Part shown: positions 4,194 to 19,900 of the stretch, in pieces
Numbering within the stretch: position 1 is the stretch's first letter
How the letters are laid out: the number at the start of each line of letters is the position of its first letter
Assembly: GCA_026004655.1 (NCBI GenBank)
Contig: BPJO01000001.1
Coordinates: forward strand, 1 to 64,000
From: Phycisphaerae bacterium
GTDB taxonomy: Bacteria; Planctomycetota; Phycisphaerae; Tepidisphaerales; Tepidisphaeraceae
DNA: 64,000 bases
Reading direction: 5' to 3'
Notes under the pieces: generated by a model
Told to the model about the DNA's origin: nothing
Seen by the model: the letters and a program-made list of their open reading frames with translations, nothing else
Database searches by the model: none
Translations under genes and position numbers: made by a program

Positions 4194-5675
4194 TCACCGT
4201 ACGACCAGGGTGGTCAACATCCAGGCCGTGGTACAACACAAAGCAGCGATCAAGCCCAGACGAATCGCGTACATTCCGACGGTCAAAACCGTTCGGCGGC
4301 TTCGGGGGCATATAGCAAACTCCGCAGGTATTCGATCCGCGACCGAATACTCCCGTGCAACCATGTCCCTGCATGGTGCACCAACCATCCATATCCCCGA
4401 CCCAGCCAACCGCGACCCGACGAGTATGACGAGGCATCCAGGGGCATATTGTTCAGTCTTGCCACGTGGACCAATGCCGAATTGAACACTTCCACCCCTT
4501 CGGGTTCAACTTTTGGGTCATCAACCGTCCTTCCCACATTCCTAGCAGCAAATAAATCGGCCTGACGCTCGAACAAACGGGACAGAGACCCGAAAATAAC
4601 GAAAAAAACCAACCACTCCCCACCACGAACAGTACCGTATCCAATGGAACACTCGCAGGTGCACGCCCCTCCCACACCCACCACACCAACACCCGTTCCA
4701 TCGCGTCCAACCAGGTGAAAAAAACTACGGCAAAAATCACGTACCAGGTCATATGCCGGTGTTTGACATGACCCGCTTCATGCGCAAAAAACGGCTTCGA
4801 TCTGACGCTGATCCATGGTCTCGATCAGCAGATCAGACAACAGGATGTATCGAAACCGGGGAATCAACCCCATGACAGCTGCGTTTCCAAAACTGAAATG
4901 AGTCTTCCAGATCAGAATATCTCGATAACGGAGTCCCAGACGCTCGCACATGGCTTGGAGTCGGTCACGCAAGGGAGAGTCGGGCAATCTCGTCACCGGT
5001 AAGACTCGACGCAATATTTCCGGACCGATCAGAAAGACCATCCCCGCTGCGGTCAGGGTCGCGACTACTTCTGTGGTCGTCTGATCCCAAGTCCCGTATC
5101 GTTGAATCAACAGGATCAGAACATCCCGGACAAGGATCGCGACCCCGACTGGGATCAGCAAAGAAAAAATCTGCACTCGGGCGTTATTTATCACGTATTC
5201 GCGTAAAGAGGGGGGTTCAAAAAAGGCTTCGCCGGCGTTTAAAAGCGGTCATGAGGTTTTGCTCACGAACCGCCCGATCCAAAGGATATTGAGCCCAGAT
5301 CAATCCAATCCAGACTAAAACGATCGGAATCGTCGACATTAGCGCCGGGAATGATTCCAGTCGTCCGTTCATCGACAACCCTGCATCCCGGATCCAATCA
5401 CCCCAACCCAAATAAAATAAACCCGTCGCGTGGATCAACATTACGACCCACCGGGCAGCAAACATCTTCTGATGAAACCGGGCAGTTGCCGAAACAGAAC
5501 GAATCGTCGTCCCTTGCATCGCCCGTCGTGCCGATCGACGCATCAGGATCACCACCCAACCTAATGACAACAGGTAAATCGGGACACCCCATCCTGAATA
5601 ATCGATCCGTGTCTGGTTGTGATTGATCCACAACGCCCACATGACCAGGGGTAACAACAGCTGCAACCGTGCCAA
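4194..5675 (-). pseudogene. M48-family membrane metalloprotease, about four frameshifts
   Basis: The reconstructed protein starts MARLQLLLPLVMW with several membrane helices. It crosses the A6 run at 5219-5224 into EPPSLREYV and INNARVQIFSLL, then crosses A6 at 4786-4791, which restores FAHEAGHVKHRH. HEAGH is the HExxH zinc motif. It crosses A7 at 4602-4608 into ERQADLFAA, the third zinc ligand region, and breaks again near 4285-4288 before a last helix (LGLIAALCCTTAW). The order of helices, HExxH and ExxxD matches HtpX/Ste24-type M48 peptidases, which degrade membrane proteins. Each break sits in a homopolymer. Read literally, no intact protease is encoded. Confidence 0.72.
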
Positions 5676-13253: not shown

Positions 13254-15210
13254 TCATCCTGCGGCGACCAGTTGACGCTCGTACAACTGTTTGTACGTCG
13301 GGCAGTTATCGAGCAACTGGTTGTGTTTGCCTTGTCCGACAATTCTTCCCTGGTCCATCACCACAATGGTGTCTGCAGCCAGGATCGTGCTAAACCGGTG
13401 CGCGATCACAAACGTCGTGCGTTCGTGCATCAGTCGTTCGATGGCTTGTTGGATGAGGTGTTCACTTTCGGCATCGACCTGACTGGTGGCTTCATCCAGA
13501 ATGAGGATAGGAGAGTTCCTCAAGATCGCGCGGGCGATGTTCAATCGTTGTTTTTGCCCTCCGGAAAGCTGGGCCCCCAATCCGCCGAGAGGGGTGTCAT
13601 ATCCAAGAGGCTTTTGCATGATGAACTCGTGGGCGAACGCTTCTTTGGCTGCTGATTCGATCTGTTGTCTCGAAAGATTGGGTTGACCGTAGGCGATGTT
13701 CTCGGCAATGGTTCCGGGGAAAATCACCGGGTCCTGGGTCACGATGGCGATAGCACGTCTAAGGGTGGGTAAAGTGAATTGTCGGATGTCGATCCCGTCG
13801 ATGAGGATGCGCCCGCCTTCGGGTTCAAAAAACCGGGGCAGCAACGACAAAAGGGTGGTTTTCCCGCTCCCGTTACGTCCCACGATAGCAACGGATTGTC
13901 CTTTTTGGACTTCCAAGGTCAGGTGATCAATGGCCAGATGGTGAGTTCCGGGATACTGGAAACAAACATCTTCAAACACGATACGGTTCTTAAAGCATCG
14001 AAGCGGGATCAGATGGTCCTGAACTCCGGTTTGTCTTTGGCGTTCGATCGGAAGATCCAACAGCTCAAAAATGCGAGAAGCAGCCCCGTTGGAACGTTGA
14101 AGTACGTTATTCAGCTTGCTCACCCGTCGAAGGGACTCGCCTATCCCGACCAGACAGGCCAGAACCAGTAAGAATCCTCCTTTATCCAGGCTTTTATCCT
14201 CAAAAATCAACCAGGAAGCCACGATCAACACGCAACCGATGGCGAGCATGCCCAACGTCTCGAGTGTTGGTGTGCTGAAAGCTTCATACCGGGCCATCCG
14301 AAGTTGATCCTTCCTCAAATCGGACATGATGGCCGAGTATCGTCGACGTTCGAAACGTTCTGCGTTGGCGCTTTTGACGACCCGGATTCCGACCAGGGTT
14401 CCTTCGATCTGTCCGAGCATGTGAGCACTGGTTTTAAGCGCTTCGCGAGAAGCCCGTCGGACTTTTTTCCCGAACTTTTTGATCATGACCGCCATCAACG
14501 GCGCAAAAAACGATGATGAAAAGCGTCAACCGCCAATCGATGACCGCAGCCAAAAGTAGGGCCAAAACCGCTTTGATCGGTTCGGCGACTGCTTGACCCA
14601 AGACCGTTTTAAACCCCTCCTGAAGGCTTTGGGCGTCAGAGACCAGCCGACTCGTCACGTCGCTAGTACCGTGTTTGCCAAAATACCCCAATGGAAGATG
14701 TAAGATTTGGTCATACAAACGCTTACGAATGTCATTGATCGCACTGATCGCCGACCGGTCGGATAAATACTCGTGACAAAATCGGAAGACGTTTCCGATC
14801 ACCGCCAGGACAAGAATCAATCCGAACAGGGTTGCTATAGCGTACACAGGACGATCGGGGACGTATTGAGCGGCCCGGTCAGCCAGTCCCCAATACCAGG
14901 AAACCGATCCGTTCCGGTCCAGTTGCTCGGTCACTTTTTCATCGACCATCTGACGGACGGTCTGGTTGTTCAACAGAACATTGATGATCGGGTAGATGGC
15001 TGACAATCCCCCGGTAAAAATCAGACCCGAACAAAACGCCGACGCAACGGCAACGATCACCTGCAGACGATACGGTGCAAGAAAACCACATGCCCGCCAG
15101 AACTCCCCATGACGACGTTTGGGGGATGATCGTCGGGGAAAGGCGGGGACAGCAAAAGTCGGGGACGAAATTTTTCCCGTGTCTTCAACCGTTTTCAGGA
15201 CGTGCCTCAC
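13254..15210 (-). CDS. MsbA-type ABC transporter (membrane and ATPase in one chain), one frameshift
   Basis: The first part (15210 to about 14510) carries the transmembrane domain, including the intracellular loop LYDQILHLPLGYFGKHGTSD. Removing one A from the A6 run at 14505-14510 joins it to MAVMIKKFGKKVRRASREAL and the rest of the domain. The ATPase follows with Walker A GRNGSGKTTLLS, signature LSGGQKQRLNIARA and Walker B ILILDEATSQVD. The architecture matches homodimeric exporters of the MsbA/lipid A and multidrug type. The reconstructed length, about 650 residues, is normal with a short extra N-terminus. The substrate cannot be told from sequence. Confidence 0.9.
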
Positions 15211-16643: not shown

Positions 16644-18627
16644 TCAAACCTTGGCAGGGATGATGACAAACGGGGTTCCTTCACGACAAAAGAATCTTTG
16701 AAGAGCAAACACCACATAATTGTGAAGCCACCTTGTCCAGATGGTTTCACGGGCAAAGGCCAATTGCCCCCCGAACACCACGGCTGTGGGGTGCTGACGC
16801 ATCAGGTGTTGAGTGATTTTTTGAATCGACTGAAGAGGATCATGACTCAAGTCCCATTCGGCTTGTGCCTCAAACCCAAGGTAGCGAGCCAGATCCACAT
16901 ATTTTTGAACCGATTCCGACGTTTGCTGACGAAGACGTTCAAGTTGCTCCGAACCCTTGAAGCTTCCGGCATCGACAACCCCGACCTGGACAAAAATAAA
17001 CTTTCCAAACGTGCCCGGGAAGACCCTGATGACTCCGTAAAAAGTGTGTAAACCTAATCCGTTGAACCCGTTGACTAAAACGATCGCGGTACGGGAAGGA
17101 CCTGATCGGATAGCGATTGCCTCCTGTTTAACATCTCGGTGTAAATGTCTTTCGGTCTGCGCCACGAGGGCTTCCAGACGTTTGAGGGAATAACTGGCGG
17201 ATCGGTAATGACGTTTGATCAAAAAGGCAATGCCCACCACCGAAGCGGTGATGAGGATGGTGATCCACCCCCCCTGCTCAAACTTTTCGATAAAAATGGT
17301 AATGAGAATGAAACCGGTGACGACCAAACCCGTCCCGTTGATCAGAAGTTTTCTTCGCCAGGACGGATCTTTTGTCCGTTGATTAAACCAGTGCCGAACC
17401 ATTCCCAGCTGGGAAAGGGTAAAGGTCAGAAAGACATTGATGCTGTAGAGGACCACCAGCAGCGCGACACTGCCTTGGGTCATCACAACAGTCAACGTGG
17501 CAGCCAGCCCCATGAGGAGGATCCCGTTCTGGGTGACAAATCGATCCGAAAGGCTTGCAAAACGAGTCGGGAACCATTGATCCATCGACATGTTAGCAAG
17601 AACACGAGGTCCATCCAGAAATCCCGCTTGAGCGGCAACAAATAAAAGTGCGGTTGCTGACAACAAGCTAACCCAGACGAAAACGCTGCCCCAACCATCA
17701 GGCCAGTTGCGCGTCATACTTTCGAACAACACCGCATTGAGGGTTTTACCCGTAACGGGTTCGACCCGTTCGAGCAAATAAGCCAAAAGTAGTCCGAAAA
17801 CGGTTATGCCCAACGAAAAACCCATGAGTGCCATGGTTTTTTTTACCCGTTTCCACTTTCGGTTCGCGTAAAACCGGCATACTGTTGGAAACGGCTTCGA
17901 TCCCGGTATAAGTCCCCGCTCCGACGCTAAAGGCACGTAACAATAATGCAATTAATCCCCACAAACCCAGTTGCTGATGAGCCTGTTGCAATTCGGAATG
18001 GGTTCGAGTGACAACCATACCAAAGTCAAAACAGGTGAACACCGATCACCATCAGAATCGCGATCGCGTGTGTGATAATGAACGCGAAAAAAAATCGGCA
18101 TGAATAGCGTCACCGACTCCTTGACACCCCGAAGATTCAACAAGGTCAGGAGACCGATCCCCAGACACGCACTGGCAAGTTTCCATGATTGATACTCCGG
18201 CGGGAGCAACGAGAACAACGCATCAATGCCACTGGCAATCGATATCGAAATGGTCAAAACGTAGTCGATCAGTAATGCACAACCGGAAACAACCCCGACA
18301 GCCGGCGACAATAATCGACCTTGCTACCAAATATCCGCCACCACCCCCCGGAAATAGCTCGATGATCTGACGATAACTGATACAAATCACGGTAATGGTC
18401 GCGACACACATCAAGGCAATGACCGGGGACAACGAGGTGTAAGCACCCAATGCTTTGAAAGTTTCTTCCGGTCCATAACAAGAAGACGAAAGCCCATCGG
18501 CTCCGACCCCGATCCATGCCAGAATCGCGCCGAGTGTAATCTTGTGAAACAGAGACCGGTCACCCAACCGAAGCGGATGACCTAGCAAATAGGTCCTGAA
18601 TCGGACCCAGTAAGAAGTGATGTACAT
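16644..18627 (-). pseudogene. kimA: KimA-like APC-superfamily potassium transporter, about four frameshifts
   Basis: The reconstructed protein (about 650 residues) begins LLGHPLRLGDRSLFHKITLG and GVGADGLSSSCYGPEE. After a break near 18300 it continues SPAVGVVSGCALLIDYVLT, then NLRGVKESVTLFMPIFF. After the A8 run at 18087-18094 and the A4 at 18028-18031 it gives FDFGMVVTR and YTGIEAVSNSMPVLREPKV. After the T8 run at 17837-17844 it gives TMALMGFSLGITVFG. The order of these motifs and a soluble UspA-like C-terminal domain match KimA (YdaO) of Bacillus, a high-affinity potassium importer. The c-di-AMP riboswitch upstream supports this reading. Amino acid transport is the alternative. Confidence 0.75.
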
Positions 18628-18724
18628 AGATCATACACACAAAATGCATTTGCTCCCGCGGTCCTGCACGCAGGGAACAACATTCTCTGATCAGGGGGGG
18701 GAGACTTCGTCCGATGGACGAGCG

Positions 18725-18890
18725 AAACTACCCTTCCTTACGCCGACGGGGTTAGCTGACGGGCTAGGCTCAGGAAGTAGCCTGAAATGGAGTTTTTCCA
18801 CTTCTTCGCCCCGTCCTGAAAAACACGTTTTCAGGAGTTTGGGTTCCCCGTGTCGACCAGAACACCCCCGGACGACTTAGGCTTAAACAA
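18725..18890 (-). promoter_or_regulatory. Cyclic di-AMP (ydaO-yuaA) riboswitch
   Basis: Read on the minus strand, the 3' part CCCGTCAGCTAACCCCG, then TCGGCGTAAGGAAGGGTAG (18747 down to 18729), is the strongly conserved end of ydaO aptamers (cCCGaCAGCUAACuCCG...GGcaauaAAGGAAGG, recalled from memory). The 5' part has GGGGAACCCAA (18849-18839), which matches the conserved GGAGGAACC block. A P1 helix can form between UUAAGCC (18886-18880) and GGCGUAA (18744-18738) with one mismatch. It precedes the KimA-like transporter start by about 100 bases, the classic target. Ligand binding normally switches the gene off. A 6-bp hairpin at 18707-18721 follows but has no U tract, so the expression platform is unclear. 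Confidence 0.85.
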
Positions 18891-18918
18891 CTTATTCCGT
18901 CGGAAACACGGTTGTCAA
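18891..18918 (-). promoter_or_regulatory. Sigma-70-like promoter for the riboswitch and transporter
   Basis: On the minus strand TTGACA (18918-18913) is followed after 16 bases by AATAAG (18896-18891). Transcription would begin near 18884, right at the 5' strand of the riboswitch P1 helix, which supports the assignment. Confidence 0.55.
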
Positions 18919-18958
18919 GACAACAACCTTATAATCACCATAAGTACCTAATTATTGA

Positions 18959-19900
18959 TCACTTAGGCGAATCATCCTGGAACAAGGCGTCAACGAATCT
19001 CTTGGGATCAAAGGATTCGATGTCGTCGGGGGTTTCACCAATCCCGATGAACTTGACCGGAATGCTTAATTCGTCCTTGATGGTCATGACGACTCCACCC
19101 TTGGCTGTCCCGTCGAGTTTGGCTAGCATCAATCCGGTGACTTGAACCGCGTCTGTAAACGATTTGGCTTGTCGGACACCGTTCTGGCCTGTTGTGGCAT
19201 CTAAAACCAACAAGACCTCGTGCGGCGCCCCTTCAATACGTTTGGCGATCACGTCCCGGATTTTTTGAAGCTCACGCATGAGATGGGCCTGGGTGTGCAG
19301 ACGACCTGCGGTATCCACAATGACCACGTCAATGCCCCGGGCCTTGGCGGCTTCACAGGCATCAAAAGCAACCGCAGCAGGGTCGGCCCCTTGTTTATGT
19401 TTAACGATTTCTATCCCCAGACGTTGGCTCCAGATCGTCAGTTGCTCGACTGCAGCCGCCCGGAACGTATCCCCGGCCGCCAACAGAACACTTTTCCCCG
19501 ATCGATTCTTCAACAAGTTCGCCAGTTTGGCGATTGAAGTCGTTTTTCCAGCACCATTCACCCCTGCCACCATGATGACCGTCGGACCGGAAGACGCAAA
19601 ACGTATCTCTCTTTCTTCCACAGGCCAGTCCCGAAGCATCATTTCCTTGACCACTTCTCTGGCTTCGACGGCATTTCGGATTCGTCCCAGCCGCCAACGG
19701 TCCCGAATCGCCCCGACAATCATTTCTGCGTTTTTCACCCCCATGTCCGCACGAATGAACTTTTCCTCAATCTCGTTCAAAAAAGCTTCGTCAATTTGCC
19801 TACCGGGTACGAACAGTGTCCGCACGTCCGTGTTCAGAACGTCCGCGGTCTTTTTCAATGCTCCTTTCAAACGATCCAGCGTCTTGGCAAAGAAACTCAT
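18959..19900 (-). CDS. ftsY: Signal recognition particle receptor FtsY
   Basis: The 313-residue GTPase docks ribosome-SRP complexes at the membrane for co-translational insertion. The SRP-type N domain (residues about 1-100) precedes the G domain with G1 GVNGAGKTT (113-121), the DTFRAAAVEQL loop (144-154), DTAGR (196-200) and TKLDGTAKGG. The insertion box between strands typical of SRP GTPases is present. There is no long acidic A domain at the N-terminus, as in many short FtsY proteins. The partner Ffh is not in the window. Confidence 0.96.
   Translation of the reverse strand: MSFFAKTLDRLKGALKKTADVLNTDVRTLFVPGRQIDEAFLNEIEEKFIRADMGVKNAEMIVGAIRDRWRLGRIRNAVEAREVVKEMMLRDWPVEEREIRFASSGPTVIMVAGVNGAGKTTSIAKLANLLKNRSGKSVLLAAGDTFRAAAVEQLTIWSQRLGIEIVKHKQGADPAAVAFDACEAAKARGIDVVIVDTAGRLHTQAHLMRELQKIRDVIAKRIEGAPHEVLLVLDATTGQNGVRQAKSFTDAVQVTGLMLAKLDGTAKGGVVMTIKDELSIPVKFIGIGETPDDIESFDPKRFVDALFQDDSPK

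Follow-up and report, generated by a model that had tools for sequence, protein, structure and literature searches.

The window, as the whole 64,000-nucleotide stretch analysed here is called, raises the question of whether an RNA leader on its minus strand is a c-di-AMP riboswitch placed before a potassium importer, how such a switch would be read out, and how the pair came to lie in this genome. Control of potassium by c-di-AMP is known mainly from Gram-positive bacteria. We consider it likely that positions 18726-18893 form a c-di-AMP riboswitch before a kimA-like gene, predicted to act as an off-switch with its readout at the start of translation, the two together being a cassette from a Verrucomicrobiota-like donor. 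The features of the locus are as follows.

18959-19900, minus strand: ftsY (SRP receptor), the gene upstream of the aptamer, used as a marker of the host lineage (TIGR00064, 340 bits)
18913-18918, minus strand: TTGACA hexamer, a possible -35 element by sequence, lying over the inverted repeat at 18910-18928
18726-18893, minus strand: c-di-AMP (ydaO/yuaA) riboswitch aptamer (Rfam RF00379 covariance match)
18772-18777, minus strand: loop strand of the pseudoknot, CTTCCT, complementary to 18733-18738
18733-18738, minus strand: tail strand of the pseudoknot, AGGAAG, complementary to 18772-18777 and of the CTTCC/GGAAGG type seen in Verrucomicrobiota kimA aptamers
18628-18725, minus strand: leader between the aptamer and the start codon, the presumed expression platform, with a hairpin predicted around GTTCCC/GGGAGC
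16644-18627, minus strand: kimA-like potassium transporter gene in several frames, with a first piece at 18223-18627 and a last long piece at 16644-17951

A ydaO aptamer on the minus strand had been proposed in the first-pass annotation, with a covariance search as its check, and that search matched RF00379 to 18726-18893 (minus strand) at 59 bits (E 4e-11, gathering score 38) over the full model (1-134). This is the only RF00379 match in the window's genome (3.45 Mb in 31 contigs, 93% complete). The aptamer sits in the 5' leader on the same strand as the kimA-like gene, 98 nt upstream of its start and 65 nt downstream of ftsY. The conserved ydaO blocks that had been quoted are all present, with GGGGAACC at 18842-18849, CAGCTAAC at 18751-18758, and GTAAGGAAGGG at 18731-18741, the last containing the 3' strand of a loop-tail pseudoknot. 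Such a pseudoknot is part of the known c-di-AMP aptamer fold, and in the window (CTTCCT/AGGAAG) it comprises 6 bp. A comparison of 134 aptamers out of 137 (98 class aptamers, the window's counted, and 39 belonging to the named KimA loci described below, with three dropped) gave a longest complementary run between loop and tail of 5.57 on average for true partners vs 4.63 for swapped partners (sd 0.08, 200 permutations), and pairing of 5 bp or more was observed in 102 of the 134. The c-di-AMP-type riboswitch before a KimA relative in the window is real. The TTGACA promoter suggested for it stands only in part; the hexamer is present at 18913-18918, but a promoter scan of the window leader returned no passing site (0.3 expected). 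The inverted repeat that spans this hexamer (GGTTGT-7-ACAACC, 18910-18928, minus strand) may serve as an operator or mark where ftsY ends.

The gene behind the aptamer had been read as a KimA-like transporter from its motifs. Its identity holds, the outer pieces matching KimA (6s3k) with E 6.6e-27 and E 2.5e-6, but the open frame does not, as 16644-18627 (minus strand) lacks a single open frame and shifts frame repeatedly from 18627 to about 17840. Homology tests were run on P0001, an uninterrupted database protein of 646 aa that agrees at every position with the clean 398 aa in the window's last piece. A 13-sequence profile (P0001 with 12 relatives) matched 6s3k across its membrane part with E 9.3e-69, the sole PDB sequence match at E 1e-5 or better, and a Foldseek search with the structure predicted for P0001 (mean pLDDT 71) placed KimA entries at ranks 1-3 (E 1.6e-23 to 3.7e-18; TM-score 0.57-0.59 by query length). 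Compared with KimA of Bacillus subtilis (6s3k, 8b70, and 8b71), the predicted fold aligns across the membrane and cytosolic domains over 639 columns, gaps included, with TM-scores of 0.59 and 0.66. The potassium-site residues given for KimA in the consulted part of PMC10284832 (Asp36, Tyr43, Thr230, and Tyr377) correspond to D31, Y38, T227, and Y380 of P0001 and are invariant in 13 sequences, and Tyr118 and Asn237 are also identical. P0001 differs from the Bacillus protein in its low identity (25 to 26%), in the large rmsd of the whole-chain superposition (about 15; 14.9), and in the c-di-AMP pocket, where Arg337 aligns with a Thr, an Arg being found one position further, and where His579 and Asn580 seem to be kept and Gln581 and Ser582 changed, by a non-significant alignment. 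Judged from its sequence, the product of the window gene is a KimA relative, as the motifs had indicated.

Beyond the class, a genome scan with a KimA profile covered named loci from many phyla, the best 80 of at least 527 relatives. Of these best 80 loci, 39 have the motif TCAGCTNACC or CAGCTAACC on the coding strand no more than 800 nt upstream and 41 lack it, with three or more of the 80 having less than 800 nt upstream. In the same named loci the motif is enriched 245-fold upstream of KimA (39 in 63 kb vs 4 in 1,585 kb elsewhere). An Rfam check of 25 of the 80 confirmed the aptamer in 12 of 13 motif-bearing loci, one Omnitrophota locus falling short, and in 0 of 12 motif-free loci.

The planctomycete host that had been supposed is well supported by FtsY. 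Among the 120 database matches listed for this protein, 10 are named, seven from the Tepidisphaeraceae, a family of the Phycisphaerae within the Planctomycetota, and one each from Fontivita pretiosa, the Burkholderiales, and a soil metagenome. The identity of the window FtsY is 84 to 69% in 20 of the 25 other family genomes, the remaining five giving distant paralogues only, and in 35 genomes of the class from other families it does not exceed 59%. No cyclase is found in the window, as had been remarked, and the genome search called for at the time located a cyclase elsewhere and also a predicted phosphodiesterase. The single DAC protein of the genome (303 aa) is CdaA by NCBIfam TIGR00159 (217.1 bits, cut-off 188.8), with a pterin-binding (FolP-like) ORF before it and a YbbR-domain (CdaR-like) ORF after it, and a PgpH-like 7TM-HD protein scores 92.9 bits (cut-off 29.4). 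The genome thus does not lack a cyclase, and with CdaA above the NCBIfam cut-off the host is predicted to make c-di-AMP. When potassium in the cell is ample, c-di-AMP, presumably from this CdaA-type cyclase, would bind the leader RNA at 18726-18893, and the bound leader would stop production of the KimA-like importer, the direction of this off-switch being taken from Bacillus. Since the RNA matches the known c-di-AMP switch family, we predict that this signal switches off the uptake of potassium.

A DAC (cyclase) domain is present in 375 of the 397 class genomes and the aptamer in 75 (74 above the cut-off), including 20 of the 26 genomes of the window's family, the window's own counted. Sorting the first gene behind 99 of the 100 class aptamers, one at a contig end being left out, revealed a GDWGTS-type APC permease in 21 cases, TrkH in 20, KimA in 17, a 72-aa protein in 10, KdpA in seven, an SPFH/Band 7 protein in seven, another APC permease in four, a histidine kinase in two (one doubtful), and Kup in one, with 10 unassigned. 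A recognised potassium-uptake gene (TrkH, KimA, KdpA, or Kup) therefore follows 45 of the 99, window included, such that one sensor stands before four potassium-uptake families in the class survey. With one representative tested for each type, Pfam supported Kup, TrkH, KdpA, Band 7, and the histidine kinase and assigned KimA and the APC proteins to amino-acid permease families only; NCBIfam supported Kup and KdpA, with TrkH just below the cut-off. Within the window's family, KimA lies behind the aptamer solely in the window's genome.

Several of these arrangements are observations in their own right. The GDWGTS permease (L079 2898-4865, minus strand, and 20 further loci) is an APC permease behind the aptamer with a Kup-like GDWGTSRLY motif, the Kup protein having GDIGTSPLY. 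Its relationship to KimA is distant (E 1.8e-9 to 6s3k; hhalign probability 97.5), and a search run without a control found none in the window's genome. In seven class genomes kdpA lies directly behind a c-di-AMP aptamer (L121 3014-4849, minus strand, and six further loci), and in seven an SPFH/Band 7 (flotillin-like) protein does so (L033 4782-6758, minus strand, and six further loci). Locus L035 holds two aptamers back to back on opposite strands, at 4368-4532 (minus) and 4634-4846 (plus), about 100 bases apart.

Ten genomes of the family to which the window belongs have the 72-aa protein behind a c-di-AMP aptamer of its own (L047 6361-6576, minus strand, and nine further loci). The one member tested had no Pfam or NCBIfam match. 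Of 394 database relatives 120 are listed, and the three of these with an organism name are all from the Tepidisphaeraceae, the others being unnamed, 'hypothetical', or 'predicted RNA-binding Zn ribbon-like'. An alignment of 59 sequences has 21 invariant columns, and the window's genome gave no real match to the protein (best E 0.397). The linkers behind the small-protein aptamers (e.g. G006:C270 and G013:C39) show a recurrent stem-loop directly after the aptamer, often with a short hairpin beside an AAGGAG ribosome site, an arrangement that could serve as a translational platform. The 72-aa protein may be a new target of the c-di-AMP signal.

What the window's switch controls, and at which step, can be read in more than one way. 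The several frame changes between 18627 and about 17840 would be expected if kimA here were a decaying pseudogene behind an intact riboswitch, which would then control nothing useful. We hold this to be very unlikely, as the uninterrupted P0001 is present in four contigs, the longest of 182,938 bases, and a 97% relative is also intact. Moreover, a nearby ABC transporter gene (13254-15210, minus strand) is likewise split into two overlapping ORFs in different frames, with its membrane domain divided between both, which points to base-level assembly errors. The frame breaks in kimA are thus probably errors of this kind. Like the Bacillus switches, the window's could act on transcription, through intrinsic or Rho-dependent termination. 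The consulted part of PMC6488665 describes a kdp riboswitch of Bacillus thuringiensis that, like the window's, is a c-di-AMP aptamer before a potassium-uptake gene but controls kdpFABC through a terminator, and in the kimA leaders of Omnitrophota and Chlamydiae, as well as in class leaders G228 and G306, the aptamer is followed by long hairpins that carry T-runs; these are the only leaders whose terminators we judged to be strong. Against termination, no intrinsic terminator was found between the aptamer and the kimA start codon in the window, whose one terminator-like match lies inside the coding region. Among the 56 kimA leaders searched, the window's included, terminator-like sites occur in just 8 of 39 named leaders, drawn from the best 80 of at least 527 relatives (3.4 expected by chance), and in 4 of 17 class leaders, the window's counted (1.8 expected), the 200-nt class stretches extending into coding sequence. 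Termination in the window is on this evidence unlikely. With no terminator detected after the aptamer, control would act at the start of translation, a readout that we infer by exclusion. The hairpin of the window leader is slightly more stable than shuffled sequences (z -1.8), and the 39 named leaders are weakly enriched in a helix that closes near the start codon (17.1 vs 15.9 shuffled, sd 0.5, about 2.4 sd), a comparison in which at least one of 100 shuffle sets scored higher than the real leaders, the starts were guessed by script and several look wrong, and the shuffle means include three long leaders (260 nt or more) in unshuffled form. Competition between strands of the aptamer and the linker was also considered for the window; there are two complementary runs of six or more, and 397 of 500 shuffles did as well. 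This does not exceed chance, so we assign no switch strands.

The origin of the pair was approached through a tree built from 64 KimA sequences (30 from the 80 named loci, themselves the best 80 of at least 527; 15 from the class, one broken gene being omitted; and 19 from the database), rooted at the midpoint only. The window KimA groups with P0003-P0006, a 'Planctomyces' MAG, a Gemmataceae genome, and a Tepidisphaeraceae protein (P0090), and this group is nested with high support among Verrucomicrobiota, mainly Opitutaceae. Thirteen other Phycisphaerae KimA proteins form a separate clade with full support, and two more lie elsewhere near Verrucomicrobiota. In the window's family KimA is found in 2 of 26 genomes, a close one in the window's genome only, the other being a 36% partial match. 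The aptamers give a similar picture. Alignment of the window's aptamer scored a mean of 39.3 (best 50.4) against 30 Verrucomicrobiota kimA aptamers and 22.3 (35.0) against the 26 own-family aptamers that were kept, a few having failed the motif filter; the corresponding values were 25.1 (48.6) for 16 class kimA and 27.6 (41.6) for 19 class TrkH aptamers, and 55.4 for the aptamer of the 'Planctomyces' MAG. The CTTCC/GGAAGG type of pseudoknot occurs in 18 of 30 Verrucomicrobiota kimA aptamers, 2 of 16 class kimA aptamers, 0 of 19 TrkH aptamers, and 0 of 26 family aptamers. Since both KimA and aptamer are nearer to Verrucomicrobiota than to their own family, in which KimA is nearly absent, the two probably entered the Tepidisphaeraceae lineage jointly, as a single cassette whose donor was Verrucomicrobiota-like.

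The cassette could instead be ancestral to these planctomycetes and have been lost from most other Tepidisphaeraceae, with no transfer at all, and there are observations that agree with such a history. P0090 (Tepidisphaeraceae) and L154 and L156 (Planctomycetota) group with the window KimA, three class kimA aptamers score 43 to 49 against the window's, near the best from Verrucomicrobiota (50), and the GC content of the cassette (about 0.50) is within the range of its surroundings (0.48-0.56), which speaks against a recent transfer. We nevertheless think this rather unlikely, given the nesting of the window's group in Verrucomicrobiota apart from the 13 other Phycisphaerae proteins, the distribution of the pseudoknot type between Verrucomicrobiota kimA and family aptamers, and genome G014, which has the closest FtsY (84%), is 80% complete, and shows neither aptamer nor KimA. 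A chimeric contig as the source of the odd KimA was also considered and is held to be unlikely because the adjacent ftsY, only 65 nt upstream of the aptamer, is a Tepidisphaeraceae gene; P0003, a 97% KimA, and P0244, a 97% FtsY, are each listed with an 88,406-base contig, presumably the same one. Joint transfer of aptamer and kimA, as opposed to ancestry with loss, is thus the reading that we retain.

The window's riboswitch shares with the RF00379 riboswitch before kimA of B. subtilis its covariance model, core blocks, loop-tail pseudoknot, and downstream KimA-type gene. It differs in having no recognisable terminator, in its likely planctomycete host, and in its Verrucomicrobiota-type CTTCC/GGAAGG pseudoknot. 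The pairing of riboswitch and KimA is of a known type, to which the cassette's origin, the lack of a terminator, and a regulon spanning the class add somewhat. A literature search by titles and the starts of abstracts found no paper treating c-di-AMP riboswitches in planctomycetes, and the original surveys may hold planctomycete examples; PMC6193735 and PMC6741144, in the parts consulted, contain an incidental mention and planctomycete proteins in an apparent tree legend, respectively. According to the consulted part of PMC6488665, riboswitch-controlled kdp seems restricted to Bacillales, an arrangement that the seven class genomes with an aptamer before kdpA extend beyond that order.

In a broader and more tentative proposal, to which we give somewhat less than even weight, a portable and self-regulated cassette of riboswitch and kimA jumped from Verrucomicrobiota to a planctomycete and there joined a multi-phylum c-di-AMP potassium regulon (KimA, Trk, Kdp, Kup, SPFH, and the 72-residue protein) that is read out mostly at the start of translation and not by terminators. 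The locus is a case of a riboswitch that seemingly moved together with its gene. The whole circuit of cyclase, phosphodiesterase, RNA sensor, and importer is visible by sequence in a likely planctomycete, and c-di-AMP signalling thereby becomes testable in the PVC group.
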